A stretch of DNA of 64,000 nt from Lachnospiraceae bacterium (GTDB lineage Bacteria > Bacillota > Clostridia > Lachnospirales > Lachnospiraceae). Position 1 is the stretch's first letter. Each line of letters starts with the position of its first letter. The DNA lies in the NCBI GenBank assembly GCA_910574865.1, contig CAJTDN010000011.1, forward strand, positions 124,001 through 188,000, written 5' to 3'. The notes under the pieces are model-generated. The model searched no databases, had not been told where the DNA came from, and was given only the letters and a program-made list of their open reading frames with translations. This document shows, in pieces, positions 21,349 through 60,852 of this stretch. Both the position numbers and the translations under genes were made by a program.

Positions 21349-22800
21349 TTACTTCCTCCATTTCCAATCCCTTCCAAACGGCAAATATTCATCATTAAAA
21401 TACTCAACCGGATTCTCCAGCCCCATCCCCCGCAATTGTTCCGCGATTTCTTCATAATAAATATTACATATAAAAATAGCGCAGTCCTTCGGCAATCCCC
21501 GCAATTCCTCCGGATCTTTCACCATGAGCCCTTCAAGCCTCGTACCCCACAGCCTCTTGTCATTATCACACGTAAAGAGCGGCGGGAACTCGCCGCCATA
21601 ATATTGCATATAATTGCGGCACATGTTTCCCGCGCCAAAAAGCACACGGTTTCGGTACTTCGCCAAAACCCGCCGCTGTCCGACCTGCCACTGAAAATAA
21701 TCCCCCATGGACTTCGCGAAATCCAGATATTTCGCCCGCAAAATTCCCGGTGTCGCACAAAATGAATCCGAAAAACGCAAAACAGCCGGCCCGTCAAAAT
21801 CTATTTCCCGAAGCCCGCATATCAGCCCCCGCCAATCCGTCCGCAGGCCAAACGCACCCACATTTGCAAATGGCAAAAGCGAACATTCCGCGCGTCCGTC
21901 ATTATCACAAAGAACAACCGCTTTCAGACGGTTTCCAAGCTCATGCACAAAATCATACATATTTTGCCCGCAAATATTGCAGACACCCGCGTCAAGGCAA
22001 AACCCGAATATCGGCACGCACGCCTTTATCCCCCGCGAACCGCCCGTCCGCGCGTCTTGTTCCTGAATCCGCGCTTGATTTTTCGCCTCCGCATTTAGCA
22101 AGTCAAGAAATTCCGCCGCCTCTTTCGCGTCACAAAACGCCCCACGCACCAGATGGCCATTTAAGTCCCTGCACTCATTCTTCAAAAGCAACGTGACCCC
22201 ATTTTCCCGGGCAACGTATGCCAGCCTCTGGTAACACGAAGCCCGAATTTCCAAATCCCCGCCGTCTGCCCCTCTCTCGGAAAATGCGAATTCCCCGTCG
22301 TTTTCCCCGCCCGTTCCCCTTGCGGAAAACGCGGAACCATCCATGCCTTCCCCGTCCGCTCCCCTTGTGGAAAACGCCGGAATCACCAAGTACGGACACC
22401 CTGCCTTTCCACATGTCCGAATACATTCCTCCACCAGCCACAATAGAAACTCATTTGAACACGCGCGCTTGTCCCTTCCTTCAATTCCAGGTGCAATTGC
22501 AATCGCAACACGCATGCCATTTTTTTCAAATTCCGCACATGCATGCCCAACCAACGCGCCGCGGACGGCTCCGCCCTGAGCCGCACGCCCCCGTTCTCCT
22601 TCCATCCCCCTTTTAATTCCATCCGTCTGATTCGTGTAATCCTGACCCGCATTTTTCAATGCCCGGCCATCCCACCACGCTCCAAAATCCAACGCGACAT
22701 TTTCAAACCCGGCACGCGCCATGGCCGCCGCCCCGCGCCCCGGACGCTCGGTATTTATAATGCCTTTCGGCGAACAAACGATATCCATAAATAATTTCAT
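21349..22800 (-). CDS. TIM barrel protein fused to the Rossmann-like adaptor domain
   Basis: A 483-residue protein. Residues about 1-375 are a second xylose-isomerase-like barrel (LLLKNECRDLNGH, FGFCLDAGVCN, VVLCDNDG), divergent from the downstream paralogue. Some metal ligands look altered: LKN replaces the usual MEN, and DAGVCN the usual DTGHAN. Activity is therefore uncertain. Residues about 388-475 are the locus-specific adaptor (VLFGAGNMCRNYM, TCDNDKRLWGTRL, EEIAEQLRGMGL). A 15-residue repeat AFSxRGxxG stands three times at about 140-186. The gene lies 15 bp after fcl. Confidence 0.75.
   Translation of the reverse strand: MKLFMDIVCSPKGIINTERPGRGAAAMARAGFENVALDFGAWWDGRALKNAGQDYTNQTDGIKRGMEGERGRAAQGGAVRGALVGHACAEFEKNGMRVAIAIAPGIEGRDKRACSNEFLLWLVEECIRTCGKAGCPYLVIPAFSTRGADGEGMDGSAFSARGTGGENDGEFAFSERGADGGDLEIRASCYQRLAYVARENGVTLLLKNECRDLNGHLVRGAFCDAKEAAEFLDLLNAEAKNQARIQEQDARTGGSRGIKACVPIFGFCLDAGVCNICGQNMYDFVHELGNRLKAVVLCDNDGRAECSLLPFANVGAFGLRTDWRGLICGLREIDFDGPAVLRFSDSFCATPGILRAKYLDFAKSMGDYFQWQVGQRRVLAKYRNRVLFGAGNMCRNYMQYYGGEFPPLFTCDNDKRLWGTRLEGLMVKDPEELRGLPKDCAIFICNIYYEEIAEQLRGMGLENPVEYFNDEYLPFGRDWKWRK
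22243..22377. repeat. Three 45-bp in-frame tandem repeats
   Basis: GGAAAATGC (22279), GGAAAACGC (22324) and GGAAAACGC (22369) mark a strict 45-bp period, giving AFSTRGADG, AFSARGTGG and AFSERGADG on the minus strand. GTTTTCC..GGAAAAC pairs within the array. Confidence 0.8.
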
Positions 22801-22815
22801 CCCTTTTCATCATCT

Positions 22816-23757
22816 TTAACGCTCCGTACGCATTTGGTTATTTAAAAAATCCTCATACGCAAGACGAACCCCGTCTTCAAGTTCGGTCTTATAAGTCCAT
22901 CCCAGAGCCGTGGCCTTGCTTATATCAAGCAGTTTTCGAGGCGTCCCGTTGGGCTTTGATGCATCCCACTTGATAGTTCCTTCATAGCCAACAACTCTGG
23001 CTATCAATTCAGAAAGCTCCTTGATAGACAATTCTATCCCGGTGCCGGCATTAACCGTTTCGTCCCCGGAATAGTTGTTCATCAGGAATACACAAAGATT
23101 GGCAAGGTCATCCACATACAAAAATTCACGAAGCGGAGAACCGTCTCCCCAGCAAGTCACTTCCTTCAAACCAGTTATTTTCGCCTCGTGGAAACGGCGG
23201 ATAAATGCCGGAAGAACATGGCTGCGCGTAGGATGATAGTTGTCGTTCGGACCATAAAGGTTGGTTGGCATAACGGAAATGTAGTCCGTACCATATTGCT
23301 TGTTTAGGAATTCACAGTATTTCAGTCCGGAAATTTTTGCCAGTGCATACGCCTCGTTTGTTTTTTCCAATTCCGAGGTCAGCAAAAAACTTTCCTTCAT
23401 TGGTTGTGGAGCCATACGGGGATAAATACATGATGAGCCTAAAAATTCCAGCTTTTTACATCCGTTTTCCCATGCAGAGTGTATTACGTTCATTTCCAGA
23501 ATCATATTTTCATACATGAAATCCGCCAGCGCATTTTGGTTGGCCACGATGCCGCCTACCTTTCCGGCAGCAAGAAATACATACTCCGGTCTTTCCATGG
23601 CAAAAAATTTTTCCACCTCATCCTGACGACAGAGATCCAACTCCTTGTGGGTGCGAGTGAGAATGTTGCTATAGCCTTGCCGTTTCAATTCACGGACAAT
23701 GGCGGAACCCACCATGCCGCAATGGCCAGAAACGTAAATTTTTGAATTTTTATCCAT
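22816..23757 (-). CDS. fcl: GDP-L-fucose synthase-type epimerase/reductase
   Basis: A 313-residue extended SDR protein. It has GHCGMVGSAIVREL at the N-terminus, AAGKVGGI, SSCIYP with the catalytic Ser-Ser-Cys, and Y..AK in AYALAKISGLKYC, followed by MPTNLYGPNDNY. This is the Fcl/WcaG pattern: 3,5-epimerisation and NADPH reduction of GDP-4-keto-6-deoxymannose. Its usual partner Gmd is not in the window. It may use a keto-sugar made elsewhere or act on a relative of it. The start follows GGAGGAAG. Confidence 0.88.
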   Translation of the reverse strand: MDKNSKIYVSGHCGMVGSAIVRELKRQGYSNILTRTHKELDLCRQDEVEKFFAMERPEYVFLAAGKVGGIVANQNALADFMYENMILEMNVIHSAWENGCKKLEFLGSSCIYPRMAPQPMKESFLLTSELEKTNEAYALAKISGLKYCEFLNKQYGTDYISVMPTNLYGPNDNYHPTRSHVLPAFIRRFHEAKITGLKEVTCWGDGSPLREFLYVDDLANLCVFLMNNYSGDETVNAGTGIELSIKELSELIARVVGYEGTIKWDASKPNGTPRKLLDISKATALGWTYKTELEDGVRLAYEDFLNNQMRTER

Positions 23758-23865
23758 TACAATCTTCCTCCTTGATAATTACCATGGAACATACTCATTC
23801 CGTGATAAACGCAAACTCCAATTTTCCCAAGCCAGCATGTTATCCACCATAAAACAATATACTTT

Positions 23866-24114
23866 TCATGCCCTATTCTGCACAATCTTATAAACCCTCG
23901 ATATACTCAGTTCATACTTCTTCGCCAAATCGCTAATCTCATAATCCCCGCTATAAAAATCGGCCTTCAACCGGGCGTTCCTTATTTCCTTGTCCTGCCA
24001 TGCGTGGTTTTCCGGGAAATACACCGTCGCCCCCGCCAACTCTCCCGCGACCACGCCGTATTTCTCCTCCCCGATTAACTCCCTTAAACGTTCCAATGCC
24101 TCTTTCGAATTCAT
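23866..24114 (-). CDS. Small Mor-like helix-turn-helix protein
   Basis: An 82-residue protein. Residues 1-40 (EALERLRELIGEEKYG, then GATVYFPE) and the C-terminal helix-turn-helix (ISDLAKKYELSISRVYKIV) resemble the Mor/C-like regulators of phage Mu that occur widely in Firmicutes chromosomes. It could regulate the glycan operon in which it sits. The ATG follows GAAGGAGA very closely. Confidence 0.7.
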   Translation of the reverse strand: MNSKEALERLRELIGEEKYGVVAGELAGATVYFPENHAWQDKEIRNARLKADFYSGDYEISDLAKKYELSISRVYKIVQNRA

Positions 24115-24226
24115 TCTCCTTCAACCCTATCCCGTCCAATTCCAGTCCTATCCAGCCCTATTTATTGCAACTTCATTCCCCTGCCCGGACGCGTATGTCT
24201 GCAACCACATTCAAACCTTCCGCGCA

Positions 24227-27200
24227 TTATTCAATAAACACCTTCTCACATTTCAGAATGGCATCAAAAATCTCCTGCCGCATCATGACTTCATCCGGAA
24301 TCCTTCCCTCACCGATATATTTCCGGATAATCGTGCCGCTGATTTCCACCCGGTTCGTATTGTAATGCCCGCAAGTGTTGTCCGTCACGACCTGCTTGCA
24401 TTTCGTGCAATAATACGGCTCCCGCGTCAGCAAAAGCTCGATTCCCAGGTCATGCTCCGCCATCAATTTCCTTGCCAGCTCGTGCGCGTCGTACGCCCCG
24501 TAATATCCGCCGACCCCCGCATGGTCGCGCCCGATGGTAAAATGCGTACAGCCCAGGTTCCTGCGGATGATGGCATGGAATATGGCCTCGCGCGGTCCCG
24601 CATAACGCATCTGGGTCCTAAGCCCCGCCATATACACCCGCTCCGAAGGATAAAACTCTTTCATCATCGCCTCATAGGCGGCAACCACCGCCGCCTCGGT
24701 AAAGTCCCCCTTTTTCTTCCAGCCTGTAATCGGGTTGATGAACAGCCCGTCGCAAACCTCCAGCCCCAACCGCTGGATGTGCTCGTGCGCCTTGTGGATG
24801 GGATTGCGCGTCTGGAAACCCACCACCGTCTTCCAGCCCTTTTCCTTGAAAATCCGTTTCGTCTCCTCCGGCTTCAGCGCCCCGTCCAGCAATTCGCGAT
24901 TCAACAGCCTTGTCCTGCCGCCGATACGGTAAGGGCTCCTCTCATGCTCCTTTTTCACTCCCGGGTGCGCGTCCTCCAAAGTGCCAAACACCTTCTTGAT
25001 GTCCGCGTCCGTCATCTCGTACTTGTCCTCCACGTCGATTGAGGCCACCGCCTCGCCTCGGAACAGCAAATCCAGCGTCTCTGGAGCAGCCAATTCTTCA
25101 TAGACCGCCTGCGGCACGTCCAGCGTCACCGGAATCGTGAACACCTCCCCGTCCGCCATCGTATATCGATCGATGACGGAGCGGAAATCCTTCTCTCTCA
25201 TGAACCCGTCAAGCGGATACAAAAGCCCCGTCTCAATATTGATAATGTCTTGTAACGTCTCCTCGTTAATTTCAACTTGCAAATGCCTCTGGTATTTCTC
25301 CGTCAAATATGAAAATGTCGTATCAGGCACCAGTTTTCGTATCGTTTCCCAGTCCCCGTTTTCCAACGCCTCCCTTACCCTGCTTGCCGAAATCACATTT
25401 CCGTCCTTTTTCAGCCGAGGAATTTCTTCAAACCCGATTCCATGGCGCGAAAGAATCATTTCCAATGTCCGATTATACTGTCTTGTCACGGTGTCCAGTG
25501 GTTCCGTTCCCACAAAACGCACCCGGATGTTCGCAGCCGGCGCAATCTCATTGGCGAAAAGAGTAACGTCTTGTGAACTGTCCACCACCCGGTCCTGCAG
25601 TTGCGACTTGTTAAAATATTCTGAAAATGTCAAGGACGAAAGGACAAATTTCCCACTCTCGACCACACGGACATTTTCCAAGCCTTCACATCCAGCCCTC
25701 ACAAGGCGAATCCGGTCTTCGAACGAGAAAAATGACTTGTCTTCCTGCACCACGAACACAATCAACATGTCACACTTCTTCGCGCACGTTTCAATCAAAT
25801 AGCGATGCCCCAGGGTAAAAGGATTGCAATTCATGACGATGGCACCAACCAGTTCCTTGAGCTTAGAATACTCTGAATAAATCTTTTCCAGCTTCTTCTT
25901 ATACGCTTCCAATTCAGCCAGTTGCGTCTCCGCCAAGTTATAATTTTCCTTGCAAATTTGATGAGGCGGCTGTTTCTCCGACAAACTCTCCCGGAAAAAG
26001 TCATGTTCCCGAAGTGTGTCCAGCAGCCCCTCCGCCACAAGGCCGTGCGCTTCTTCCGTCACATGCATGTCGTCATAAAATAATTCACCATGCCGATAAG
26101 GACGAACGTCCAGTTCCTTATTATAGGAAATCACCCTTCCCCCGGCTCCAATCACGATATCTCCCGATTTCAGCGGCAACGCTTTTAAAATAGCCAATAT
26201 TTCTTTCTGCCAGTCCATGCCGTCCAATGCAAAACCGTAGTTTTCCACAAGAAAAGACTCCCCGGGCGCATAGATATTCAGCAATTTCTGCAGCTGCGAG
26301 GCAAGCGTCCCCTCATCCCGCACCCCTATGCCAAGCCAGATACAGCCACCCACGATATATATTGTGCGCTTAAACTTCTCCGGTTGCCAAAGAGTTTTCC
26401 GATGCCCGTCCACGATATTCAAATATTTTCCTTTATAATCCTCAAAATGCCTGGCCCCATCCACGCCCACATAGGATTTCGGCGGGGTCAGCACTTCCAA
26501 AACACCTGTCGGCTCTTTTATATGTTTCGTCAAAACCGGAGACAACATGGGATCCTGGTAAAACTTTGTGTAGTGGATTTGTTCCTTTAAAATCCATTTT
26601 TCGTTTTTCGATAAATGCTCTTCTGGAAATTCCGGGAACCTTGCATTCAGAAACACCACCCCGGGAACGCCCTCCACGAATTCCCTCAAGGCAGAACGCA
26701 TTCCTAAATGCGAAGCAACCAAGTCCTCCGAATATGTATCAAAATTAGAAGAATCGACCACGACATCGTTTTCCTTGTCATAAATGACGAAAAACAGCCC
26801 CCGGTTCCCAATCCGCCTTTCTTTTCCGTCAATCATCACGCTGCACATGCGTGGCGAATCCACCTTCTGCATTCCCGCGCTTTTTACAAGGACATCCGCT
26901 TTCCCCAGCTTGCATCTTATGCTGACGGAATGCGTGTCAGAAATCTTTTCGTCCACCTTGCGTCCTTCATCTATCACGGCACAGTAAGACACCCTCCACT
27001 TGTTCCAAAGGTTGATATCCAGTCCCAATGTCCGAAGTCTCTCGCCCATCTCCTCGGTAAATCTGCTGCTCCCGCAAGGAGTATCCCTTGATGTGATAAT
27101 GATGGAGTACCCGTCTTCCTCTGCCTGGCGGAGCAAGTCAATATAACGCGAAAAATCCGCTTCCGCCCAAAACACCTCCGCGCTGGTACGCTCAATCTCA

Positions 27201-27523
27201 ATGGCATCCAATCCCTTTTTGACATCATCAAGCCTCTCCAGCACGTTCCCGCAATCTGCTCCCCTATCACAACACGCCGAGCATGTTTGCTCCCGTGATT
27301 CAATCATGGAAGACAGCGTGCCCCCCAATGCTTCTAAAGCACTCACCAGTTGGCTGGTATTTGCAATCCCTTCCACATATCGCGTGATTTCATCTACAAA
27401 AAACAACATGTCCGAGACAAGCCGTCCCCTCGCGTCAGCATTTCCCATTTCTGACAATATATCTGCCGCCTCTTGCAACGTTCCCAGTAATTCACATATT
27501 TTTCCATGTTGCAGCTTTCTCAT
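24227..27523 (-). CDS. Giant fusion: ILEI-like, SGNH-like, CitC-type nucleotidyltransferase and ATP sulfurylase
   Basis: A 1098-residue protein. Residues about 1-110 are helical. About 110-290 resembles the interleukin-like EMT inducer domain (VMIDGKERRIGNRGLFFVIYD). About 310-530 looks SGNH-hydrolase-like (YIVGGCIWLGIGVRDEGT, ending DDMHVTEEAH). About 555-745 is a citrate-lyase-ligase-type nucleotidyltransferase (NCNPFTLGHRYLIE, ISASRVREAL). About 750-1098 is ATP sulfurylase with RNPIHKAHE and GRDHAGVG intact, which makes APS from ATP and sulfate. APS kinase is encoded next door, so this should feed PAPS to the sulfotransferase-like protein. The start at 27523 follows GAGGAGGAG; upstream in-frame codons precede that site. 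Confidence 0.85.
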   Translation of the reverse strand: MRKLQHGKICELLGTLQEAADILSEMGNADARGRLVSDMLFFVDEITRYVEGIANTSQLVSALEALGGTLSSMIESREQTCSACCDRGADCGNVLERLDDVKKGLDAIEIERTSAEVFWAEADFSRYIDLLRQAEEDGYSIIITSRDTPCGSSRFTEEMGERLRTLGLDINLWNKWRVSYCAVIDEGRKVDEKISDTHSVSIRCKLGKADVLVKSAGMQKVDSPRMCSVMIDGKERRIGNRGLFFVIYDKENDVVVDSSNFDTYSEDLVASHLGMRSALREFVEGVPGVVFLNARFPEFPEEHLSKNEKWILKEQIHYTKFYQDPMLSPVLTKHIKEPTGVLEVLTPPKSYVGVDGARHFEDYKGKYLNIVDGHRKTLWQPEKFKRTIYIVGGCIWLGIGVRDEGTLASQLQKLLNIYAPGESFLVENYGFALDGMDWQKEILAILKALPLKSGDIVIGAGGRVISYNKELDVRPYRHGELFYDDMHVTEEAHGLVAEGLLDTLREHDFFRESLSEKQPPHQICKENYNLAETQLAELEAYKKKLEKIYSEYSKLKELVGAIVMNCNPFTLGHRYLIETCAKKCDMLIVFVVQEDKSFFSFEDRIRLVRAGCEGLENVRVVESGKFVLSSLTFSEYFNKSQLQDRVVDSSQDVTLFANEIAPAANIRVRFVGTEPLDTVTRQYNRTLEMILSRHGIGFEEIPRLKKDGNVISASRVREALENGDWETIRKLVPDTTFSYLTEKYQRHLQVEINEETLQDIINIETGLLYPLDGFMREKDFRSVIDRYTMADGEVFTIPVTLDVPQAVYEELAAPETLDLLFRGEAVASIDVEDKYEMTDADIKKVFGTLEDAHPGVKKEHERSPYRIGGRTRLLNRELLDGALKPEETKRIFKEKGWKTVVGFQTRNPIHKAHEHIQRLGLEVCDGLFINPITGWKKKGDFTEAAVVAAYEAMMKEFYPSERVYMAGLRTQMRYAGPREAIFHAIIRRNLGCTHFTIGRDHAGVGGYYGAYDAHELARKLMAEHDLGIELLLTREPYYCTKCKQVVTDNTCGHYNTNRVEISGTIIRKYIGEGRIPDEVMMRQEIFDAILKCEKVFIE

Positions 27524-27602
27524 CAAGTACTCCTCCTCACACCATACCGCAAATAGATTTTTCGCCAATCCCTTGGCATTTGTACCTCTTTACAAGCCCT
27601 TT

Positions 27603-28115
27603 TCACCCACATCCCCCATACTTATCCTCAACATAATCCAGCACCGCCCGGTACGTCTCCTCCACCGACATCTTGTCCACTTCCAGCACCAAGTCCGGGT
27701 TCAACGGCTCATCAAACGCCGTGTCAATCCCCACGATTTGCGTCTTACCCACGTTCTCTTGATACATGCCCTTGACGTCGTTTTTCATGCTGGCCTGCAA
27801 GTCCTTCTTCAAATAAATCTCGTTATACCCGGATATCTTCCTCCTGGCGAGCTGCCGCAAATGCTCCAGCGGCCCGATGTTGCAAATGATTCCGATAATG
27901 TCATTTCGATCCAGAAGATACGCCCCGAGAATAATCCGCTTGATGTTCGCCTCCCGGTCGGCGTCCGAATAGCCCAAGTCGCGGTCGAACAAATCCCGCA
28001 CCTCGTCCCCGTCCAGCAGATAACACTTCTTACCCAGTTCCTTAAAATGTGCTTCCAACTTTCTCCCGATGGTGGTCTTGCCCGCCCCGGAAATACCAAT
28101 TAACCAAAGAATCAT
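27603..28115 (-). CDS. cysC: Adenylyl-sulfate kinase (APS kinase)
   Basis: A 170-residue kinase with the P-loop GISGAGKTT at residues 7-15, LLDGDEVRDLF, DREANIKR and the ICNIGPLEHLRQLAR segment of CysC. It converts APS to PAPS, the sulfate donor. The start at 28115 sits behind AGGAGGGAT; a longer reading to 28172 runs through the ribosome site. Together with the ATP sulfurylase part of the next gene it forms a complete PAPS route placed in a glycan locus rather than with cysteine genes. Confidence 0.92.
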   Translation of the reverse strand: MILWLIGISGAGKTTIGRKLEAHFKELGKKCYLLDGDEVRDLFDRDLGYSDADREANIKRIILGAYLLDRNDIIGIICNIGPLEHLRQLARRKISGYNEIYLKKDLQASMKNDVKGMYQENVGKTQIVGIDTAFDEPLNPDLVLEVDKMSVEETYRAVLDYVEDKYGGCG

Positions 28116-28207
28116 ATAAATCCCTCCTATTTTTTCCGCCGGTTCCTTCGTTTTCTGGAAATCCCGCCTCACGATTCCTATAATCCGTCCAAATTGGAAA
28201 TCTTGTC

Positions 28208-30898
28208 CTAGAATCCAATTTCGTTGTAATATACCCTTTCCGGTGAAATCCCCATAGCCTCAAATTCATGCCCTATACTCCGGCCATACCGGCTTGAAGT
28301 TACTAATATATTGTACTCCTTGTATGTACCGCACAGTTCCTCCGGCACAAACACTTCTTTTCCTTCAAAAACATATGGATGCGCCCCCGCCTTCTTGTCA
28401 CTATACAGCATCCTCTTCCGCAAATCCTCACTCATTAACGCCAACATCCCCTTGCAGTCATTTCCCGTACCATATAAAATCAACTTGTCATGACTTTTTA
28501 TATACTCCATCATCCTTGCGATTTTCTCTTCATTAAATTTTGCCACCCGCTCTTTTGCCGTTTGTTTTAATTCAAATCGCTCGAATTCTGGACTAATATC
28601 GTCCAACACCATATGTTTCCTGACGTTCCACAACTGCCAGCTTATCCATTCCCGCATGTTTAAATCCTCGGACTCATCCCTGCCAAATATCTTTTTCTCG
28701 TCGAAACGAAATGGCTTAAGGAACAAATCCTGCAGCTCCCTGCGGGAAAATTTCAGACAATTCTCATAAACATAACCATATCTTTTTTGATAGGGACTGC
28801 ATGCGATGGAGATTCGAAAACGGTCAAATTCTGAAAGGAAGTCCTCATAATCATTGAACACGGCTTTCAAATCAAAATCCACGCTGCCACGATACGCCAA
28901 TGGCGCACCCGCGCTCGTAGTCTGCATCATCGCATCCGACCACTTTATGCCAAGCCTCTCACAAACCTCCGACAATTTTTCCCGGGGATTCACCTTGATA
29001 TCCTCAAAACGCATCTTGAACTCTTTCCAATGACGATATGGAAAACAACTCTCGCCCATCCCCGACAAATCTGAAAACATTACTCGGTACGCCGATGGTG
29101 CAATCCATTTATCCATCATCCTTGCGCATGCCGAACCGGTTCTCACGACATTGTTCCTTCGCAATATTATGCTCTGGCCATTCACCCTTTCGTCTTCCAG
29201 CCATAATGCAAAGAAAGGAAATTCCTCCCTGGACGCGAAATGCGGCTCCCAATAGACGACCCGTTTCGAAACATCTTCCATCCGTTCCCCGCCACACATT
29301 TCTGCATAAGCAACCTGGAAAAGCACGAATAATTCCTGGGACGTAAAACTCTCCTTCAGACCCAGCAATCGTTTTGCGCTTTTTTCAAATCCATCCTTGT
29401 TTAGAAAATACATGTCCCTGCTGCCCGCTTCTTCATCATACATTTCCCAAAATGCGTCCAGCACCTTGTCAGAGTCCATGTTTGCCAGCCGTATGCAGTA
29501 ATAAAACAAGTTTTCATTCAAATCAGAATATGGCATCACCAAAACCTCCGGGTGCCCGTCCATCACGCCTCGAAAGAAAACATTCCCGCTCCATCCGGGA
29601 ATGTCCCCCAGAAGTATTCCCCTGGGCAGCAACCCCGAAATCCCATACTTTTCCTCGCCCTGATTCAAATATGAATCTATCAAGGCAAAGCAGCGGCTGC
29701 ATACAAAATACTCCGTATAATTTCCAAATCCCATCTCCCCGAGCAGATGTCCTAACTTGTTTTTATTCGCCTCGCCTACCTCCTTCAAACGATTATGGTA
29801 ATCCGGCACGACCAAACACAAAATATCGTTTTCCCCCGCTGAAACATCCCGTCCCAACTCTATATATTTTACCGTTACTTCCCCACCTTCCACGGTTTCC
29901 AAATAGTCCGACAGCAATTGGCAAAGCCGTCTGTCGCCGGTCAGCCAGACTCTTTTTTGGTGCAATACATGAACCAGATTTCCGACAGGAATATCCGTGT
30001 AATCCTTAAGGAGGAAATACTGCCGATTCCTCTCATATCCGCAATAATCAAAGTACTCGGTCAGCTCCTCGCCCAACGCGCCATGCTTATCCTTACAATT
30101 AATAAATATCGGTGATGAAAAGCGGCACGTCGCGTCCGGGATGCCCATCACTTCCTTCCCCAGCAGCCGTTTTGTTCCATCGCACCGCTTCACGGCAAAT
30201 GCGCAAATATCGACGCCCCTTCCCATAAGTAAATCGCATGCGTCCTGCGCCTCCCTATCGTCTCCCAGGATAACAATTTCACGCTTGTCTTCTAGATACC
30301 GTACCAATTCATCAAAATCGCCAATGGTATCTTGTACGTTCCCCCGCAGCACGTTTTCTTCATAAATCTTGTCAATGCACTCAAATGCCGGTGACACGCT
30401 CCTTTTCACCAGTTCACGCAAGTCCCCATAATCCGATATCCCCTCCGTATATATCAGCAGTCTGTTCTCTGGTTCCGTCCTGACCTCGTAATTACTTTTG
30501 TAACCGAACCACTCCCAGTATTTCCCCATTACGGATACCCGAACCTTGCATTCCCGCAGATACTCCGCAAAGGAAACGGCAAGTTCGCAGCATCCACAAA
30601 TAACCACTTCTTTGTACTCCGGGAAAACATCCGTGAACTGCAACGCGTCCTTGTTCCCCCGCAGTTCTTTCAACATGCGAAGTTCTCTATTCGCCTCGGA
30701 ATCCTGGAAGCCGCAGGCAAGCAGTAACCCTTCCTCATCTTTAAGGGGGAGCAAGTCTATCATGCCATCCTGCCGCCAAACATGTTTTTTAAAAACAGAT
30801 TTACACTTTTCCCAAATCCGTTCATTCAAAACCAATGGTGTTTCATTTAATCTACACTTTTCGTCTTTATAAAAATCTCCATTCCAAAAGCGAAGCAT
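28208..30898 (-). CDS. Sulfotransferase-like multidomain protein with terminal adaptor
   Basis: An 896-residue protein. Residues about 1-400 hold tandem nucleotide-fold-like segments (VVICGCCELAVSFAEYLREC, EIVILGDDREAQDACDLL) that may be degenerate adaptor domains. About 430-760 resembles sulfotransferases: DIPGWSGNVFFRGVMDGHPEV resembles their 5'-phosphosulfate loop, and RFEDIKVNPREKLSEVCERL their late RxEDLxxxP element. The C-terminus (about 800-896) is the locus adaptor (KLILYGTGNDCKGM, then MLYSDKKAG). PAPS synthesis genes follow directly, which supports glycan sulfation. The start follows AAGGAGGAG. Confidence 0.65.
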   Translation of the reverse strand: MLRFWNGDFYKDEKCRLNETPLVLNERIWEKCKSVFKKHVWRQDGMIDLLPLKDEEGLLLACGFQDSEANRELRMLKELRGNKDALQFTDVFPEYKEVVICGCCELAVSFAEYLRECKVRVSVMGKYWEWFGYKSNYEVRTEPENRLLIYTEGISDYGDLRELVKRSVSPAFECIDKIYEENVLRGNVQDTIGDFDELVRYLEDKREIVILGDDREAQDACDLLMGRGVDICAFAVKRCDGTKRLLGKEVMGIPDATCRFSSPIFINCKDKHGALGEELTEYFDYCGYERNRQYFLLKDYTDIPVGNLVHVLHQKRVWLTGDRRLCQLLSDYLETVEGGEVTVKYIELGRDVSAGENDILCLVVPDYHNRLKEVGEANKNKLGHLLGEMGFGNYTEYFVCSRCFALIDSYLNQGEEKYGISGLLPRGILLGDIPGWSGNVFFRGVMDGHPEVLVMPYSDLNENLFYYCIRLANMDSDKVLDAFWEMYDEEAGSRDMYFLNKDGFEKSAKRLLGLKESFTSQELFVLFQVAYAEMCGGERMEDVSKRVVYWEPHFASREEFPFFALWLEDERVNGQSIILRRNNVVRTGSACARMMDKWIAPSAYRVMFSDLSGMGESCFPYRHWKEFKMRFEDIKVNPREKLSEVCERLGIKWSDAMMQTTSAGAPLAYRGSVDFDLKAVFNDYEDFLSEFDRFRISIACSPYQKRYGYVYENCLKFSRRELQDLFLKPFRFDEKKIFGRDESEDLNMREWISWQLWNVRKHMVLDDISPEFERFELKQTAKERVAKFNEEKIARMMEYIKSHDKLILYGTGNDCKGMLALMSEDLRKRMLYSDKKAGAHPYVFEGKEVFVPEELCGTYKEYNILVTSSRYGRSIGHEFEAMGISPERVYYNEIGF

Positions 30899-31004
30899 TT
30901 ACTCCTCCTTCTCATATACTTTTACCAATTTATGGTCACTCGCTTCACACACATAGGCAAAGCCGGATGCCACCCTTGTCCGCCGCAACTAGCGTTTATC
31001 GTTT

Positions 31005-33206: not shown

Positions 33207-33209
33207 CCT

Positions 33210-37026: not shown

Positions 37027-37176
37027 CACGGACTCCCCCTTTCCTCTTTTCGCCGACCTATACCCATCCGGGCATCCCGCATCAGACGTGCTTCGCGCCA
37101 GCGGACGCTTACGCGCCCGGCAAAATATGCCATTACGGCAAGTTGCATAGCGTCACAGACAATGGGTTTTTTCTCC

Positions 37177-38679: not shown

Positions 38680-38725
38680 TTCGCCGCCCCCTCTTTCATG
38701 TCGCGCCCTTTCGTCGTGTTCCCAC

Positions 38726-42975: not shown

Positions 42976-43010
42976 CGCCCTTCGCCTCCTGCAGTCCGTC
43001 TGTTCGCAAA

Positions 43011-45718: not shown

Positions 45719-45733
45719 CTTTCCCAACTCCCT

Positions 45734-46990: not shown

Positions 46991-47119
46991 TTTTCCTTTC
47001 ACCTTTCTTAAAAACCTATTAATAGAAAACAAGCAAAATGTTTGCGTTTTATTCATTTCCCACGCCGGATTCATACCGCAAAGCGGCATTTCGCCTTTGT
47101 GCATCCACGAATCACGGTG

Positions 47120-51039: not shown

Positions 51040-51093
51040 GTTACCTCCGTGTCTGCCATCTCAAACATGGTGGCGATTCAAGCCGCCCGTCAG

Positions 51094-51234
51094 GAAACTC
51101 GTCCCAAGCTTCGCGGCAGCTCAATCCACCCGCCAGGATGCTCCTCCCAAGCTTCGCGGCAACTCAATCCACCCGCCAAGATGCTCCTCCCAAGCTTCGC
51201 GGCAACTCAATCCACCCGCCCAGCGTCTCGTCCC
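51094..51234. repeat. 43-bp tandem repeats at and beyond the end of the TupA-like gene
   Basis: CTCGTCCC or CTCCTCCC followed by AAGCTTCGCGGC recurs at 51098, 51141 and 51184, and a degenerate start of the unit lies at 51227. The exact period is 43 bp. The copies carry AACTCAATCCACCCGCC. The last full copy encodes the C-terminal residues of the TupA-like protein; the others lie downstream of its stop. Confidence 0.85.
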
Positions 51235-52418: not shown

Positions 52419-53597
52419 TTATCTGTTAAATTTCAACGTACCTTCATATTCTTTGTTGTGCCCGGCACAAAACTTAAACTCTGGTCCATTCCGAAACGTG
52501 TCATCTATATACCCTATATCCTGCAGCGTAAACCCATTCTTCCAAACTGCATACATAAATGACAACTGATCCCTTCTTGAATTATTTAAAACCTCTTTCC
52601 ACCATGTCTCCATGACGCGAATACAGTCTTTATTATTATGCTCCCGAACCATGACTCCATTTTCTGTTAGGCCAAAATAGCGCGGAAATCCTTCTTCTAT
52701 ATAGCGTTGAAGCTGCTTTCTCATTTTTTCCTTTCCATGCTCTTCCCCCATTGCATTACAATAATAGAAAAGACTTGCTGCATGCTCGTATACGTCATCT
52801 GCCGTAGGCATTCCATAAGACGCAATTCCTATCCTCCCTATTTTCTGTATCAATCGCGCTACTTCCGTCTGAATCTGAATTGAACCATCTACATATATCG
52901 AATAATTATACTGCGGGAAAAAAATATGGGGGTGCATCTTACAATACCGATTAATACGAGTCAAATCCTTCAACTCTAGTCCCTCTGGTAACTTGCCAGA
53001 TATGTCTATCCACTGATATATTCCTATATTTTTCTGTTCTTCAAATCCCAAAAAATAGTAATCACATCTCGAATCACATATTGCCGGCTGCCGCAAATCG
53101 TCATATTGTCCCAAAATGCATGTATATACCGCAATTCTTGTGTCAGAACCAATCTCTTTCTGATATTTCCCTAATTGATTTTTCCCCCCCCATGCCTTCG
53201 GCAATTTAATCTCCAGACATCTTCCAATCACTTCATCCAATCTAAACCACGCATGATTTAAAAACACATGGTCCATTCCCAGTTTCTCCAATTGTTCTGA
53301 TATCTGCTTAAAATTAGCTTCATTTGTCGCAATAACACAAAACAAATCTTTCCCATATTGAATCAGTTCCGTCGGCGGTACACATCTCAATCCGTCAATA
53401 ATCTCTTTTCCCCACATTTTCGGGTTGTTATCGGAAAAACAAGTGATATTGCCGGTTCCCCATTCCTGAACAAACTCGTATCCCCAATGTTCTGCCTTTT
53501 TTCCCACGCCAAAAAGGCAAACATATTTATATTCTTTTACCTTTCGGCAAAACCCATGAAACTCTTTCTCCAACAAGCTTTTTTCGTTTCTATCCAT
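52419..53597 (-). CDS. Adaptor plus TOD1/MUCI70-like (DUF616) glycosyltransferase
   Basis: A 392-residue protein. The adaptor is at about 20-125 (VCLFGVGKKAEHWGYEF, CFSDNNPKMWGKEI, SEQLEKLGMDHVF). About 155-390 has the DUF616 pattern: AVYTCILGQYDDLRQPAI, RINRYCKMHPHIFFPQYNYSIYVDG. These are putative glycosyltransferases. The start at 53597 avoids overlap but has a weak ribosome site; a start at 53639 would overlap kdsD by 37 bp. The gene is visibly more AT-rich than its neighbours. Confidence 0.8.
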   Translation of the reverse strand: MDRNEKSLLEKEFHGFCRKVKEYKYVCLFGVGKKAEHWGYEFVQEWGTGNITCFSDNNPKMWGKEIIDGLRCVPPTELIQYGKDLFCVIATNEANFKQISEQLEKLGMDHVFLNHAWFRLDEVIGRCLEIKLPKAWGGKNQLGKYQKEIGSDTRIAVYTCILGQYDDLRQPAICDSRCDYYFLGFEEQKNIGIYQWIDISGKLPEGLELKDLTRINRYCKMHPHIFFPQYNYSIYVDGSIQIQTEVARLIQKIGRIGIASYGMPTADDVYEHAASLFYYCNAMGEEHGKEKMRKQLQRYIEEGFPRYFGLTENGVMVREHNNKDCIRVMETWWKEVLNNSRRDQLSFMYAVWKNGFTLQDIGYIDDTFRNGPEFKFCAGHNKEYEGTLKFNR

Positions 53598-53602
53598 AAT
53601 TT

Positions 53603-54568
53603 TCAAACCATGATTCCTTTTTTTGCAATCATCTGCCATGTAATCATGCCGATAACCTTCTTGTCTGTATCTACGACCGGGTAATTATTCAGGCTTCTCT
53701 TTTTCAATCTCTGCAACGCATCCACCGCCAGTATGTCCTTCCCAATCCACCGCGGGTTTTTCGTCATGATATGGTCAATGACGTCGTGATACATGTCAAC
53801 TTTTTTCTCTATCGCCCTCCGCAAATCGCCGTCAGTCAAAAGCCCCGCTAATTTTCCTTGGTTATCCACAACCGCGACAACTCCCAGCCCTTTCTTACTC
53901 ATCTCCATGATTGCATCAGAAATTTTACATCCTTCCCTCACGAGCGGAACATCTTCACCCTTTGCCATAATGTCATCCACCCGGATTATTATTTTCTTTC
54001 CAAGCGTCCCTTCCGGATGGAAAAGGGCAAAATCCTCTTTCGTAAAACCATGATAACAAGACAAGGCAACTGCCAGCGCGTCGCCATAGGTCAAAACGGC
54101 GGTGGTACTCGAAGTTGGTGCCAGATTTAACGCGCATGCTTCTTTCACTTTAGGCATAACCTGAACACGGTCACATCCCCTGGCCAGAGAAGAGTCCCCC
54201 TCTGACGTAATTGCGACCGTCTGAGCCCCGATGAACTTTATCCCCGGAAGCATGTGCAAGATTTCTCGACATTCTCCACTATTACTAATCAGTATCACGA
54301 CGTCACTTGGAGATATCATCCCCAAATCACCATGCAAGGCTTCTGCCGGATGCAGAAAAAAAGAAGGAGTACCCGTGCTGGAAAAGGTTGCCGCCATCTT
54401 ACGCGCAACGTGTCCCGATTTTCCCATCCCGCACAACACCACTTTTCCCTCACAGCAAGTTAACAAACCCACAATTTCTTCAAACGAGCCGCCAATCGCG
54501 TGTTTCGTCTGGTTCAACGCCTCTATCTCCGTATCAAATACATCTTTCGCGCATTTTATAAAATCCAT
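53603..54568 (-). CDS. kdsD: D-arabinose 5-phosphate isomerase, KdsD/KpsF type
   Basis: A 321-residue enzyme with a SIS domain (about 35-175: VVLCGMGKSGHVARKMAATF, SSTGTPSFFLHPAEALHGDLGM) and two CBS domains (about 205-320: DIMAKGEDVPL, GLLTDGDLRRAIE). It makes arabinose 5-phosphate from ribulose 5-phosphate, the first step to Kdo. kdsA and kdsB are encoded immediately upstream. The start follows AGGAGAAAGG. Confidence 0.93.
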   Translation of the reverse strand: MDFIKCAKDVFDTEIEALNQTKHAIGGSFEEIVGLLTCCEGKVVLCGMGKSGHVARKMAATFSSTGTPSFFLHPAEALHGDLGMISPSDVVILISNSGECREILHMLPGIKFIGAQTVAITSEGDSSLARGCDRVQVMPKVKEACALNLAPTSSTTAVLTYGDALAVALSCYHGFTKEDFALFHPEGTLGKKIIIRVDDIMAKGEDVPLVREGCKISDAIMEMSKKGLGVVAVVDNQGKLAGLLTDGDLRRAIEKKVDMYHDVIDHIMTKNPRWIGKDILAVDALQRLKKRSLNNYPVVDTDKKVIGMITWQMIAKKGIMV

Positions 54569-55367: not shown

Positions 55368-55406
55368 CTGCTTATCCTCTATTTTTTTATTGTTATTTTT
55401 CAACTG

Positions 55407-56135: not shown

Positions 56136-56222
56136 TTTCCTATCCCCCCATTTTTATCCTTTTATTCTCTTGATTTGTCAAAAAGCAACTTGTCAGAGCT
56201 TCAACTCCAACAAATTTTTCCC

Positions 56223-57509
56223 TTATTGAAACAGCGAGTCAAAATCTACTCTCTCAAACACTTCAAGCATTCCGCCCCGGGTGGCATTATAAATCTTGAT
56301 TCCATGAGAATCCGCATATTCCCTCGCCGATTCATAACTCAAAACCATTCTATCTTCCTTATGATTCATAACATCTGCCTTTTGCTCCCGAAAAAAATAA
56401 TTGCTGTTACTACCTTTACAATAATTACAATCCACTCCTAGCAAGTATATTTCCTTAAATCCCATATATACCGCTATTTGGATACACGCATATGTAACGG
56501 TTGCCCCTCCATATACCACACGTGCTACATCTTCTGAAAACAATGGCGGCTCTTGAAAGATATCATCGGTGACACAATGAACTTTAAAAAATTCCTCATT
56601 TTCCTTTTCATCGCCCATAATCTCATCAACAAATTTAATTTTGGCGGGATACGCCAAAATTTCTTTATGATATTTCTTTAAAAACAACGTATCAACCGCA
56701 ACATAGTAATCGGGTAACCATCTCTCGCTTTCCAAATTATAAATTCGATTCACGCCAAAACAAATCTCTCTATTATCATATAAGATATCTACCTGTCCCA
56801 CATCAAGACTAGACCCTGTCGCCACTATAAAACATCTTTCATTGGAATGTTTGTTTTTGAATCTTTCCAAATTCGGATTATAATATTCTGCAATCTTATA
56901 TGAAAAATCATATGCATTAATACACTCTATTCCTTTTCTCTCGAATGCGTCAATATCCCGCTTTTCTCTTGTTGTAATAAACGCTTTACTCGTTTTTTGT
57001 ATCATGTCTTTTGATTTAAAAACAAAATTTATATGTAAAAGTCTTTCCATTTTTCGAATCGTTTCTGGATGACGGCACTCATTTGAATAGCAAAACAATT
57101 CTTCGCATCCATCATTACACAATTTCTCATATAACAAACAACTAAACAAATTACTTCCTACAATAATGTTATTTCCTAATCTATCACCTGCAAATTCCAG
57201 CAAACGTTCCAAATCACTTATTCCATACCCCTTTAACTCCGACGGACATTCACTTAAAATAAAATATTGATAAACTCCTTTTTCTCTTAGAAAAGATTCT
57301 ATTTCTTCATAATCTGCAACTGCGATAATAATAAACAAATCCCGATAGTATCTGTGATATGTCTCAAAATCGATAATCTCTGTTTCCCCTTTTCGTTTTC
57401 CAACCTTAGATAAATCACTGTCTATAAATGCCACAATGCGTTCTTTTGTTAATAGCTCTTTTAATTTTTCTCCACGAAATCCAGCTCCCCATATAACATA
57501 TTTATTCAT
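56223..57509 (-). CDS. Adaptor plus DUF115/MptE-like protein, candidate CMP-sugar transferase
   Basis: A 428-residue protein. The adaptor is N-terminal (about 1-95: YVIWGAGFRGEKLKELL, AFIDSDLSKVG). About 215-420 shows CFIVATGSSLDVGQVDIL, PDYYVAVDTLF, VVYGGATVTYACIQIAVYMG and IYLLGVDCNYCKG, as in DUF115/MptE-like proteins and loosely in GT42 sialyltransferases. Its position directly after the CMP-Kdo genes suggests it may transfer Kdo (inference). DUF115 domains are also part of the Maf flagellin glycosyltransferases. The gene is AT-rich. Confidence 0.7.
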   Translation of the reverse strand: MNKYVIWGAGFRGEKLKELLTKERIVAFIDSDLSKVGKRKGETEIIDFETYHRYYRDLFIIIAVADYEEIESFLREKGVYQYFILSECPSELKGYGISDLERLLEFAGDRLGNNIIVGSNLFSCLLYEKLCNDGCEELFCYSNECRHPETIRKMERLLHINFVFKSKDMIQKTSKAFITTREKRDIDAFERKGIECINAYDFSYKIAEYYNPNLERFKNKHSNERCFIVATGSSLDVGQVDILYDNREICFGVNRIYNLESERWLPDYYVAVDTLFLKKYHKEILAYPAKIKFVDEIMGDEKENEEFFKVHCVTDDIFQEPPLFSEDVARVVYGGATVTYACIQIAVYMGFKEIYLLGVDCNYCKGSNSNYFFREQKADVMNHKEDRMVLSYESAREYADSHGIKIYNATRGGMLEVFERVDFDSLFQ

Positions 57510-57544
57510 AAATCTGCCTCAACCTTCCATCAAAGTAAACGCTA

Positions 57545-58708
57545 TCACGTCCATTCCTCTATTTCCAACCGGCTTTGTTCCCATCGGTTATCATACGTCC
57601 GCCGCTTTACATTACAATATCTGCAAAACGGAATCGGTTTTGATAGGAAATCTAAAATTTCGTCTTTTGATTTCGCTTCATATATATTTACCCCATCCTT
57701 TTCACTTACATTAAGGGATTTACCAAAATACCTATTAAAATGTATTATGTTTGCCGGAAGAACGCACGGATATAGAATTCCATTTTTCAGTGTAATACAT
57801 TTATTAGCCATGTTACATGAATAGAAATTTTCCTTAACGTTCTGGTTTCCCTCCGTATCCAACGGATAATACGACATATGTTTATCATTTACCGCACTGC
57901 CAAAAAATTCAAACTCCACCCCTTTTGCTTTGCACATTGCCTCTATTTCTAGATAATCCATCTTTATCGGGTACTTTGTTACAGAAATTTTTATCCTGTT
58001 TTCTTTACAACAGTTCCAAAAAAATGCCGACATCTTGCTTAGCAATATACCATTTGTTATTAATTCAATTGTTGCATTCAAAAAGCTTTTTCTAGCTGTC
58101 CCTAAATAAATCGAAATATCGCTATTCAAAAGTGGCTCACCACCCAATAAATATATTCTATCAACATCTTCACCAAACAAATTCGCTAATCGCTCAAAGT
58201 CATTTCGAAAAACATGAAAATCCGTTACTTCCTTTTCTGCCAATGGAGAAAAATGATGGCACGACTTACATTTCAGATTACAATGCATCGCAATATCCAC
58301 TTCAAATTGGAATTTTTCTTTACGGCATCCTTTTTCCCTTTGCATTTCCAACTTTTCTTCTTCAATCAAGATAGTTGGTGCACTGAAAATGGTTTCGCTT
58401 GCCACGCCTAAATCCAACAACTGTTTTTTCATACTATTCTCATGAAACAAACTACATATAAAATATGCTTTTTTAGCAGCAACCCGCACCGAATGTTCGA
58501 CAGACAACACCAAGACGTTTCTATATATTTGCCCAATTTTATTGACAGAATTATCACAAAAATATACGTTCCTTTTAGCTTGGGAAATCAACTCGTCACA
58601 TAACCGCATTCCCAGTCTGGAATAACCAAATATAATGATTGTGACATCTTCTGCAAATGAAAAAACATCTTGTATAAAATTTATTTCACTCAAATGTCTC
58701 ACTCCCAT
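57545..58708 (-). CDS. Adaptor plus radical SAM protein
   Basis: A 387-residue protein. About 15-125 is an adaptor variant (IIIFGYSRLGMRLCDELI, YFCDNSVNKIGQ, KKQLLDLGVASETIF). About 135-330 is a radical SAM domain with CNLKCKSCHHF, the CxxxCxxC cluster site, and LLGGEPLLN. Cys residues near the end (CRYCNVKRRT, with CNMANKC and CVLP earlier) could hold a second cluster, as in SPASM proteins. The ATG at 58708 overlaps the preceding gene by 10 bp; a TTG at 58693 behind GGGAGTGA is an alternative. Substrate unknown. Confidence 0.82.
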   Translation of the reverse strand: MGVRHLSEINFIQDVFSFAEDVTIIIFGYSRLGMRLCDELISQAKRNVYFCDNSVNKIGQIYRNVLVLSVEHSVRVAAKKAYFICSLFHENSMKKQLLDLGVASETIFSAPTILIEEEKLEMQREKGCRKEKFQFEVDIAMHCNLKCKSCHHFSPLAEKEVTDFHVFRNDFERLANLFGEDVDRIYLLGGEPLLNSDISIYLGTARKSFLNATIELITNGILLSKMSAFFWNCCKENRIKISVTKYPIKMDYLEIEAMCKAKGVEFEFFGSAVNDKHMSYYPLDTEGNQNVKENFYSCNMANKCITLKNGILYPCVLPANIIHFNRYFGKSLNVSEKDGVNIYEAKSKDEILDFLSKPIPFCRYCNVKRRTYDNRWEQSRLEIEEWT

Positions 58709-60852
58709 ATCGCTGATTCTCTATGATTTATGATTCCATTATCATAAAAGAAACTTTCTTTCATTATTTTTGATGGTTGAAATCCTTGTTCCATCAGACA
58801 GCCAAATAACTTATCTGCAAATTTTTCATCCGAACATAATTTTTTCGTCGACAAATCCTGCTGCAATTCTGACATATCCTGAATAAACTCTACAATGCCT
58901 TTTTGCATATCTTTCCGAACATTAAAACATTGCTGATTTGACATATTTCCCGCACGAACGCTGCTACCATTTTCATCAATATATTCCAACATTCCATAAG
59001 GTGCCGTAAAAAAAGCTTCTATAAATCCCGCATTTTTCCATACACTTGTTTCTTTTCCAGTTTTATCTGTCACATCTTGAAAACACCCTTTCATATCTTG
59101 AAACCGGCAACACTTGTTGTTTTCATCCAAAAATGCCGCAAAATAGTATCCTTTTATCCTTTTTTGCAACATCTTTCCTAAATAGTATTGTGTATTTCCA
59201 TAAAGAAGCGAGTCCACTACCCCAAACGAATTTTTCAAATTTAATCGCTCTATATATAACAAATAATTCATTCTTTCCTGCTGTGTTCTTTGATATATTT
59301 TTTCTTCATATGTTTTTAGTTTTTCATGCAGTATGACCGAATTTTTTTGGATATCAGACATGTTCTCTTTTGTTTGAACAGTTTTCTCCATCTCCAATCC
59401 AAAACGATATTTTAAAAACTCTCCGAATGTGCCTTCATATGGAAACGCTGCCACTTCATAGATGTCCTCTCTTCGTTCTATGGACGCACTCATAATCGCT
59501 CTTCTTGATATTTCCAAATATACTGCGTTGGGAGCATCCTTCCATTTGAGAGACCGGCAAAATTCCCGATATATATCAATTAATAAATATCCTTCTCTTG
59601 CCAAAAAAACGATTTCCTCAATGCCATCCTCACTGCTTTGCTCTAAAAGCCATCTCATATAAGTAAAGCACAAACTCCCAAGCAGAACATATCCAGTTTC
59701 TTGCTCATTTTCAAAAGCAAGCAGTCCCTTTGTTTTATTTAGTACAAAAGGACTATTAAACAACTTTGCCAAAATCAGTCCTATCGACAATGAACTATAC
59801 AGAGATTTAATCTCTGGTACAATTCTCCCAATAGATGAATTCTCCAGCAAACTTCTTGAACTTCTTATATAATAAGCATCTATATTAAATTTTCTCGGCA
59901 TCTCATAATCACATCTAAAATTGTCTCCGATGTGCAGAGCCGATTGATTCTGAACAATCTTTTCCGCATAATATTGCCAAAGTGTTCCCTCTTCCTTTGT
60001 TTTTCTGTGCTCACAAGATACCAAAATTCTATTTTGTGTTGCATTTATTCCAATAGTACTTAATATTTCTTGTAATTGCCTACTAGTAAAATACATGTCA
60101 CTGATAAAATATACTTGTTTGTTTTTCAAGACATCATTGCACAATTCAACCATATCTTTTCTTGAAACTAACATCTGCAGTTCCGTACTCCATTCAAGTT
60201 GCTTGACCTGATTTAGTAATTCATCATCCCATCCAGATAACTCCCCTAACATATCATAAATCTCGTCAAATGTCGGATATTCGAGCATATCTACTGCTTT
60301 CTTTCGGAATTCCAGAAATACAAACCTTTCTCCATATTTTGCATTTAACTTACACTCTACTAACCTGAGAACATCGAAAGGCAAGTACGTTTTCCTGACA
60401 AGCAACGTATCAAATATATCAAAAGAAATCATATCATGTTTTCTTATTTCTCTCTTGAGCTCACATATAGAAGTATCCCAATATGCGTCATTTTGGTATT
60501 CTTTTTTTTCTTCCTTTGCCAACTCTCCATTTCTATAATAGACTGGCAATTTCCATGTCTTGATTCTACTATAAATCACGCCCCAGTATATCTGAGCCGT
60601 ATTTATAACGATTATATCCGCTTCTCTTTCTGCCGTTGCTTGATCTATTATCTCGACTCCATATATCTGCTTACCAATCAAAGCCTCATCCCGATCCAAC
60701 AAACCGATAATTTGATAGCCATCCAAGCCCATGAGCAAAGTAGCCGTCATTCTGCCCGTTCCATATAAAGCAATTCTCTTGCCTTTCAAATCCCGAAACG
60801 CTTTTTTAAATTCTTCTATTTCAAATTCAAACTTACTCTTTACTCTTTCCAT
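58699..60852 (-). CDS. Adaptor plus HAD hydrolase-like protein
   Basis: A 717-residue protein. The adaptor is at about 20-110 (RIALYGTGRMTATLLMG, GLLDRDEALIGKQI). About 140-330 is a HAD domain: SFDIFDTLLVRKTY with the nucleophile Asp, and LHIGDNFRCDYEMPR with the metal-site Asp. The C-terminal 380 residues are helical and unassigned (IVFLAREGYLLIDIYREF, VDSLLYGNTQYYLGKM). Similar HAD proteins stand in many polysaccharide loci. Kdo-8-P phosphatase activity is conceivable, since no kdsC is seen, but this HAD type is not the KdsC type. Strongly AT-rich. Confidence 0.78.
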   Translation of the reverse strand: MERVKSKFEFEIEEFKKAFRDLKGKRIALYGTGRMTATLLMGLDGYQIIGLLDRDEALIGKQIYGVEIIDQATAEREADIIVINTAQIYWGVIYSRIKTWKLPVYYRNGELAKEEKKEYQNDAYWDTSICELKREIRKHDMISFDIFDTLLVRKTYLPFDVLRLVECKLNAKYGERFVFLEFRKKAVDMLEYPTFDEIYDMLGELSGWDDELLNQVKQLEWSTELQMLVSRKDMVELCNDVLKNKQVYFISDMYFTSRQLQEILSTIGINATQNRILVSCEHRKTKEEGTLWQYYAEKIVQNQSALHIGDNFRCDYEMPRKFNIDAYYIRSSRSLLENSSIGRIVPEIKSLYSSLSIGLILAKLFNSPFVLNKTKGLLAFENEQETGYVLLGSLCFTYMRWLLEQSSEDGIEEIVFLAREGYLLIDIYREFCRSLKWKDAPNAVYLEISRRAIMSASIERREDIYEVAAFPYEGTFGEFLKYRFGLEMEKTVQTKENMSDIQKNSVILHEKLKTYEEKIYQRTQQERMNYLLYIERLNLKNSFGVVDSLLYGNTQYYLGKMLQKRIKGYYFAAFLDENNKCCRFQDMKGCFQDVTDKTGKETSVWKNAGFIEAFFTAPYGMLEYIDENGSSVRAGNMSNQQCFNVRKDMQKGIVEFIQDMSELQQDLSTKKLCSDEKFADKLFGCLMEQGFQPSKIMKESFFYDNGIINHRESAIWE

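Follow-up and report, generated by a model that had tools for sequence, protein, structure and literature searches.

Why should enzymes of quite different chemistry carry one and the same small domain? The question is raised by a glycan locus of a gut Lachnospiraceae bacterium, which lies in a stretch of 64,000 nt (contig CAJTDN010000011.1, positions 124,001-188,000, from a 5.33 Mb genome); this stretch is called the window below, and genes are named by their positions in it. A first-pass annotation of the window, made from sequence alone, had listed 16 proteins with a Rossmann-like domain and proposed that the domain is a docking code for a multi-enzyme glycan assembly. The shared module of about 95 residues is real: it is one homologous domain, borne by 15 window enzymes of about a dozen families and by one small stand-alone protein. 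As to its role, the evidence leans towards a common ligand-binding accessory module, docking being the other of two live readings.

A module shared by many enzyme families

Through leave-one-out profiles, 16 of 17 tested copies were recovered, the 17 being the 16 coordinates of the first-pass annotation and a stand-alone copy that it had overlooked (37177-37500). The latter obtained the top leave-one-out score, 67.6 bits; in the controls, no score exceeded 3.7 bits among 13 non-members or 17.3 bits among 1500 shuffled proteins. The same 16 window copies were found with a profile built from 503 copies outside the window. The claim of one domain on proteins of many families was thus borne out at 15 of its 16 coordinates, the exception being the C-terminal copy of the sulfatase-like protein 31005-33206 (minus strand), which failed both the leave-one-out test and the 503-copy profile and was rejected. 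Additional copies perceived by eye in 28208, 31005 (N-terminal) and 56223 were also tried, and only residues 202-280 of 28208 score, weakly. Over the whole genome, the first profile gave 22 matches with E ≤ 1.4e-4: 17 in the glycan island (31005 included, as it was then still part of that profile), two on contig C10 and three on contig C2.

The glycan genes taken for analysis (20170-63977) all lie on the minus strand, and the module occurs at either end of their products or inside them. It is C-terminal in 21349-22800, a degenerate TIM barrel whose module (21373-21675) is the most conserved copy across genomes; in 28208-30898, a protein with a weak sulfotransferase-like match (E 0.18), where DKK replaces DN (module 28211-28510); in the GT4 protein 43011-44603 (43032-43313); and in the GT2 proteins 35635-37029 (35677-35967), 44600-45727 (44651-44938) and 45734-47104 (45761-46051), the last with Val in place of the pocket Asp. 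Internal copies are present in 33210-35552 (33681-34004), between a methyltransferase-like N-terminus and a cytidylyltransferase C-terminus, and in 41314-43017 (41833-42123), between a glycosyltransferase-like part and a part that is FkbM-like by eye. The N-terminal carriers are the methyltransferase 37531-38769 (38353-38697), the Glyphos_transf protein 39630-41237 (40821-41156), the TupA-like ATP-grasp protein 51164-52399 (52073-52351), the TOD1_MUCI70 protein 52419-53639, assigned to DUF616 in the first-pass annotation (53235-53549), the MptE-like protein 56223-57509 (57249-57509), the radical SAM protein 57545-58708 (58361-58666; the second Gly of GxG is Ser) and the HAD protein 58699-60852 (60523-60798), which holds the weakest accepted copy. 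The stand-alone protein has 107 aa.

A profile search of other genomes, the check suggested with the first-pass annotation, gave matches in 20 of 26 genomes at E ≤ 1e-3 (up to 29 matches) and in 73 of 398 genomes of the phylum at E ≤ 1e-6, the own genome being included in both; in the phylum count at most 12 candidates per genome were scored, and some of the matched proteins are as long as Rex or PglD. Together, 40 fetched loci and the window contain 134 copies, of which 129 are fused proteins in 43 sequence clusters and five stand alone, one in the window and four in relatives (one or more of the latter truncated at a locus end). A Pfam scan covered 126 of 138 domain-bearing open reading frames (ORFs), namely 55 with an N-terminal module and 71 with a C-terminal or internal one. 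GT2 was matched by 3 of the 55 (among the best 25 of 40 families) and 31 of the 71 (best 25 of 26 families), and CTP_transf_like by 2 and 5, respectively. Other carrier families, among the matches listed, are FkbM, radical SAM, MptE, DUF4422, Caps_synth, LicD, RgpF, GT8, TupA and pyruvyl transferase. Among 104 non-carriers from 12 loci, the best 25 of 110 families include GT2, Epimerase, LicD and AP_endonuc_2 (five each), GFO_IDH and CTP_transf_like (four each), DegT (three) and UDP-sugar dehydrogenase (two), and GT2 is rarer there than in carriers (5/104 vs 34/126, Fisher p 5e-6).

Relatives, pocket and cassette

To which family does the module belong? Against the PDB, the 16-copy profile matched 3nkl (E 2e-8), presumably the PF13727 domain of a PglF-type dehydratase, Rex (3e-7) and VioB (2e-3), and TrkA was also matched. 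Its sequence places the module in the Rossmann group of PglD_N, C-methyltransferase-C, CoA_binding_3 and Rex. The resemblance to PglD N-terminal and C-methyltransferase C-terminal domains, suggested in the first-pass annotation, proved right, because each of the two Pfam cut-offs is passed by one copy: that of PglD_N (PF17836) by the stand-alone protein, with 28.2 bits against a gathering score of 23.4, and that of Methyltransf_14 by a GT2-borne copy on contig C10. The copy of 43011 falls just below the PglD_N cut-off (E 1.4e-4), and none of the 15 fused window proteins has a Pfam model at cut-off over its module; run on the whole genome, PglD_N exceeds its cut-off at a single place. No match to PF13727 was obtained in the window at E ≤ 10, nor any to Hexapep among the window carriers, and 2 of the 55 N-terminal carriers of the relatives match Hexapep. 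A TrkA-type protein by eye, L067:9268-9918, was of no use as a PglD comparator.

Each known relative departs from the module in some respect. The N-terminal domain of PglD, NeuD and VioB (PF17836, TIGR03570) is like it in size, GxG turn and sequence, and in the D-D or D-N that ends strand 2, but it sits on a left-handed beta-helix acetyltransferase, whereas the module is found on many other enzyme families. PF13727, in WbaP-type phosphoglycosyl transferases and PglF-type dehydratases, is likewise an accessory domain common to two unrelated glycan families; unlike the module, it sits on membrane enzymes of those two families and has a longer profile (175 positions). PF08484, the C-methyltransferase C-terminal domain, has its cut-off passed by one GT2-fused copy of the own genome; it is described on sugar C-methyltransferases, whereas the module spans many families. 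The Rossmann half of the NADH-sensing repressor Rex shares the QL...GI helix region in its profile similarity, but its DNA-binding half has no counterpart in the window copies, and the third Gly of GxGxxG is missing in two core module families. In the openly accessible literature, no publication was recognised as describing such module fusions.

These core families, of the 21349 and 33210 types, keep a GxG turn and an Asp-Asn pair that align with what is the ribose/base site in PglD-type homologues. GxG together with the Asp at the end of strand 2 is present in 105 of the 134 copies, in 99% of 77 21349-type and in 100% of 74 33210-type copies; the third Gly of GxGxxG is kept by 0% of both types and by 97% of the 35635-type GT2 copies. 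In the 33210 type, 15 columns are conserved at ≥90%: the F-G-S-G turn, D-N, W-G, G, P, C-I-K and Q-L, all of which except Q-L would be expected, from homologues, at the ends of strands, where ligands usually bind. The Asp-Asn pair was also considered as a sign of cytidine specificity, but this was dropped, since VioB, which acts on a dTDP-sugar, shares that Asn. Ligands of related domains have been described. In a PglD-type enzyme the corresponding domain region holds UDP (PMC8040287). UMP, UDP and UTP stabilise the PF13727 domain of WbaP, and UMP inhibits the enzyme; the same domain joins the dimer interface through a beta-hairpin (PMC10942596). For a Myxococcus WbaP relative, a response regulator was modelled in contact with the PF13727 and catalytic domains, and proximity labelling supports the model (PMC12802240).

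The degenerate barrel of 21349 stands beside a TIM-barrel paralogue without the module (20170-21348, minus strand), which keeps the conserved His/Glu/Asp set. In an alignment of 77 carriers and 72 non-carrier paralogues, His261, His284, His286 and His295 (20170 numbering) are present in 72 of 72 paralogues vs 0 of 77 carriers, and Glu332 in 72 of 72 and 6 of 77. Metal is usually bound in this fold by an E-D-H-E set; with at least two of the four metal ligands lost, the 21349-type barrel is probably inactive. That a module might complete the active site of its own host, an outcome named beforehand as fatal to the docking proposal, is accordingly unlikely for the 21349 type, because the barrel itself has lost these four histidines and mostly Glu332; this answer holds for that one family. 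Among the pairs listed, the 21349-type module is more conserved than its barrel in 21 of 21 (61-88% vs 37-75%); over all families, the module is more conserved than its host in 91 of 393 pairs. Within 20170, a 66-base tandem repeat of 2.7 copies (21036-21213) adds some 60 residues of repeated sequence to the N-terminal part.

A search for the 21349 family in named genome records yielded 175 related stretches, of which 80 were kept and six dropped as repeats, leaving 74 loci, mostly of Lachnospiraceae and also of Selenomonas and Anaerovibrio. One of the two search motifs falls within the module, and the presence and conservation of the module on 21349-type proteins are therefore partly built in. 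The module is borne by 356 of the 1138 ORFs of these loci, which also contain 10 stand-alone copies of 105-164 aa. In the 12 commonest arrangements (56 loci), a 33210-type gene is directly upstream of the 21349 type in 29 and a 20170-type gene directly downstream in 51. With the conserved anchor gene as reference point and the 20170 type left out of the downstream count, 258 of 396 contiguous upstream genes encode the module vs 2 of 405 downstream (70 loci, p 1e-103), exceptions including four loci without upstream carriers (0/4 in L088, 0/4 in L112, 0/6 in L117 and 0/7 in L129). At least four membrane segments are predicted for 4 of the 396 upstream genes, and the cassettes are, by this prediction, soluble. 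Assigned by best-matching family, with the families defined from the window and its carrier pattern hence partly built in, carriers amount to 76/76 for 21349, 73/77 for 33210, 75/77 for 35635, 26/35 for 45734 and 9/12 for 43011, and to none for 20170 (0/71), LicD (0/13) and GT2-TPR (0/23). The earlier remark that precursor enzymes lack the domain was upheld in the named loci, where it is found in 0 of 69 members of nine precursor-type families, two of which (gdpd and tagD_idh) were classed as such by eye.

The flagellar setting

In the own genome, flagellin and flagellar genes border the glycan genes on both sides. One flank has two flagellin genes, each with an adjacent GT2, and the other has chemotaxis genes and the fli/flh operon; of these, a single flagellin and a single GT2 (with weak matches to TPR) were confirmed by Pfam, and the second GT2-flagellin pair, the fli/flh operon and the chemotaxis genes were identified by eye. 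The island contains kdsA-, kdsB- and kdsD-type genes (named by eye), and its MptE-like protein, of what we take to be the Maf family, has a weak match to the Kdo transferase WaaZ. A Clostridium Maf is able to place Kdo on flagellin (PMC11339370). Given the flagellar flanks, the kds-type genes, the WaaZ match and this precedent, the island is likely a flagellin glycosylation island. Each of 30 window proteins has at most one predicted membrane segment. Flagellin is present in 8 of the 40 fetched loci, including a locus of the own genome on contig C2 (270538-273217, L066); this second locus encodes MptE-like and radical SAM proteins that carry the module, and it has kdsA- and kdsD-type genes as well as flagellin. 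In L026 (3194-10130), two consecutive GT2-flagellin gene pairs, similar at their starts, resemble a tandem duplication.

Further features were noted in the island. In 33210-35552, the methyltransferase-like part, a central part that is kinase-like by eye and the cytidylyltransferase part are joined in one protein, which, with the LicD of the island, suggests a CDP-activated, methylated substituent; the phospho-N-methyl-threonine described for C. difficile flagellin is a comparable one (PMC4441256). A single long frame at 24227-27568 unites a citrate-lyase-ligase-type C-terminal domain with a complete ATP sulfurylase and matches two separate adjacent ORFs in two relatives. A 43-base tandem repeat of 3.3 to 3.5 copies (51078-51242) lies around the 3' end of 51164 and the space between that gene and 49561.

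Regulation, docking or inheritance

What, then, does the module do? On the tree of the domain, host family requires 40 changes vs 70.4 ± 1.7 after shuffling (0/1000, 107 copies), and locus 103 vs 107.2 ± 2.4 (73/1000, 134 copies). When locus labels were shuffled within host families, a weak signal was obtained (81 vs 85.2 ± 1.9, 36/1000). After thinning of close copies at distance 1.0, the values were 36 vs 47.7 for host and 86 vs 87.1 for locus, the locus signal after thinning being 165 to 380 of 1000; the most severe thinning (distance 2.0) left a weak host signal (28 vs 31.1 ± 1.2, 22/1000). Each enzyme family thus passes on its own module copies, and the tree does not support homogenisation among the copies of one locus, bar the weak stratified signal. 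With host distances and the 20170 paralogue removed, the domain distances of the 21349 and 33210 types correlate over 60 loci (partial r 0.19, p 0.006), and no co-variation was found for 21349-GT2 (p 0.73) or 33210-GT2 (p 0.59), a hint of one specific pairing rather than of a locus-wide code. These results do not establish the docking code proposed at the outset: the domain follows host family and hardly locus, co-variation is weak and confined to one of three pairs, and conservation in the 33210 type is mainly at the pocket.

We give about an even chance to an accessory, non-catalytic ligand-binding module through which the enzymes of a cytosolic glycan cassette would jointly be regulated or recruited. 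In favour of it stand the profile matches to 3nkl, Rex and VioB, the uridine nucleotides that stabilise the WbaP domain, the pocket kept in the two core families, a carrier barrel without its conserved histidines, the soluble cassettes, and the presence of the module on about two thirds of the cassette genes, here adjoining flagellar genes, against its absence from the precursor-type families. Several observations weigh against it. GxG and Asp are missing in 29 of the 134 copies and are kept in 58% of 77 35635-type GT2s (Asp in 62%), in 61% of 199 unassigned copies and in 0 of 4 of the radical SAM set, so that the pocket is not universal and, the GT2 copies being relaxed there, one function for all copies is unproven. 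The second, uracil-reading Asp of PglD is replaced in every copy (0/134, in an inferred alignment register), VioB likewise having Asn there. In 77 21349-type modules, 47 columns are conserved at ≥90%, well beyond the pocket as well as in it, which would be expected of a binding surface, although part of this conservation is built in by the search motif; the barrel of these carriers retains Asp258 in 65 of 77 and Glu216 in 61 of 77. Flagellin was found within about 20 kb fetched in only 3 of the 74 named loci. Finally, many hosts (radical SAM, ATP-grasp, methyltransferase) are presumably not users of nucleotide sugars, and a shared nucleotide ligand therefore needs a common intermediate. It is the extended conservation of the 21349 type that also speaks for docking, in which modules would associate with one another or with a hub, for example 21349, and the enzymes form one complex. 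Such a role would suit a module placed at either end of or inside many families, the recurrence of stand-alone copies, a degenerate carrier beside an intact paralogue, the weak 21349-33210 co-variation and the weak locus signal within host families, as well as the part that PF13727 has in the WbaP dimer interface (PMC10942596), although the beta-hairpin used there may or may not be present here. The lack of a clear locus signal in the whole tree, thinned or not, the two pairs without co-variation and the concentration of 33210 conservation at the pocket leave docking rather doubtful.

A domain that follows its enzyme family could instead hold the nucleotide part of the donor or acceptor of its own enzyme. 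The C-methyltransferase C-terminal domain is one precedent for this, and PglD is another (PMC8040287). Substrate holding is improbable nonetheless, given a barrel devoid of its conserved histidines, hosts for which no nucleotide sugar is expected, GT2s without the module in the same loci (5 of 104 non-carriers match GT2, among the best 25 of 110 families) and a module that surpasses its host in similarity in no more than 91 of 393 pairs. Still less probable is a module that is mostly inherited baggage or a folding aid, with neither ligand nor partner in common. The relaxed pocket of many GT2s and others would agree with this, as would hosts more conserved than the module in most of the 393 pairs, but such a passive part sits poorly with a family-specific presence over many genomes (73/77 for the 33210 type, 75/77 for the 35635 type and 76/76 for the 21349 type, the last partly built in) and with a 21349-type module more conserved than its barrel in every pair listed.

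Under the favoured ligand-binding reading, all the enzymes would recognise one small ligand through their modules, most probably a nucleotide or else a common intermediate by its nucleotide end, and binding would either turn enzyme activity on or off or keep the enzyme at the site of glycan construction. With its highly conserved copy, the degenerate-barrel protein would serve as hub or sensor; in peripheral enzymes with a relaxed pocket, the module may be a contact surface only. The glycan would be assembled in the cytosol, for flagellin or directly on it, and no lipid carrier would be involved. A broader proposal is put forward tentatively: the enzymes may share the module as a handle by which they gather on a 21349-type hub or grip the same nucleotide-bearing intermediate, the cytosolic glycan needing no lipid carrier and being made before or on flagellin, and new chemistry being added by attachment of the module.

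The organisation of bacterial glycan pathways is generally ascribed mainly to substrate specificity and to membrane carriers. If the proposal is true, an accessory module on some two thirds of the genes in a soluble cassette, across very different chemistry and with one copy on a degenerate enzyme, would constitute a rule of coordination, and the same rule would cover how glycan pathways gain new steps. The module also marks enzymes of unknown function as belonging to the pathway.

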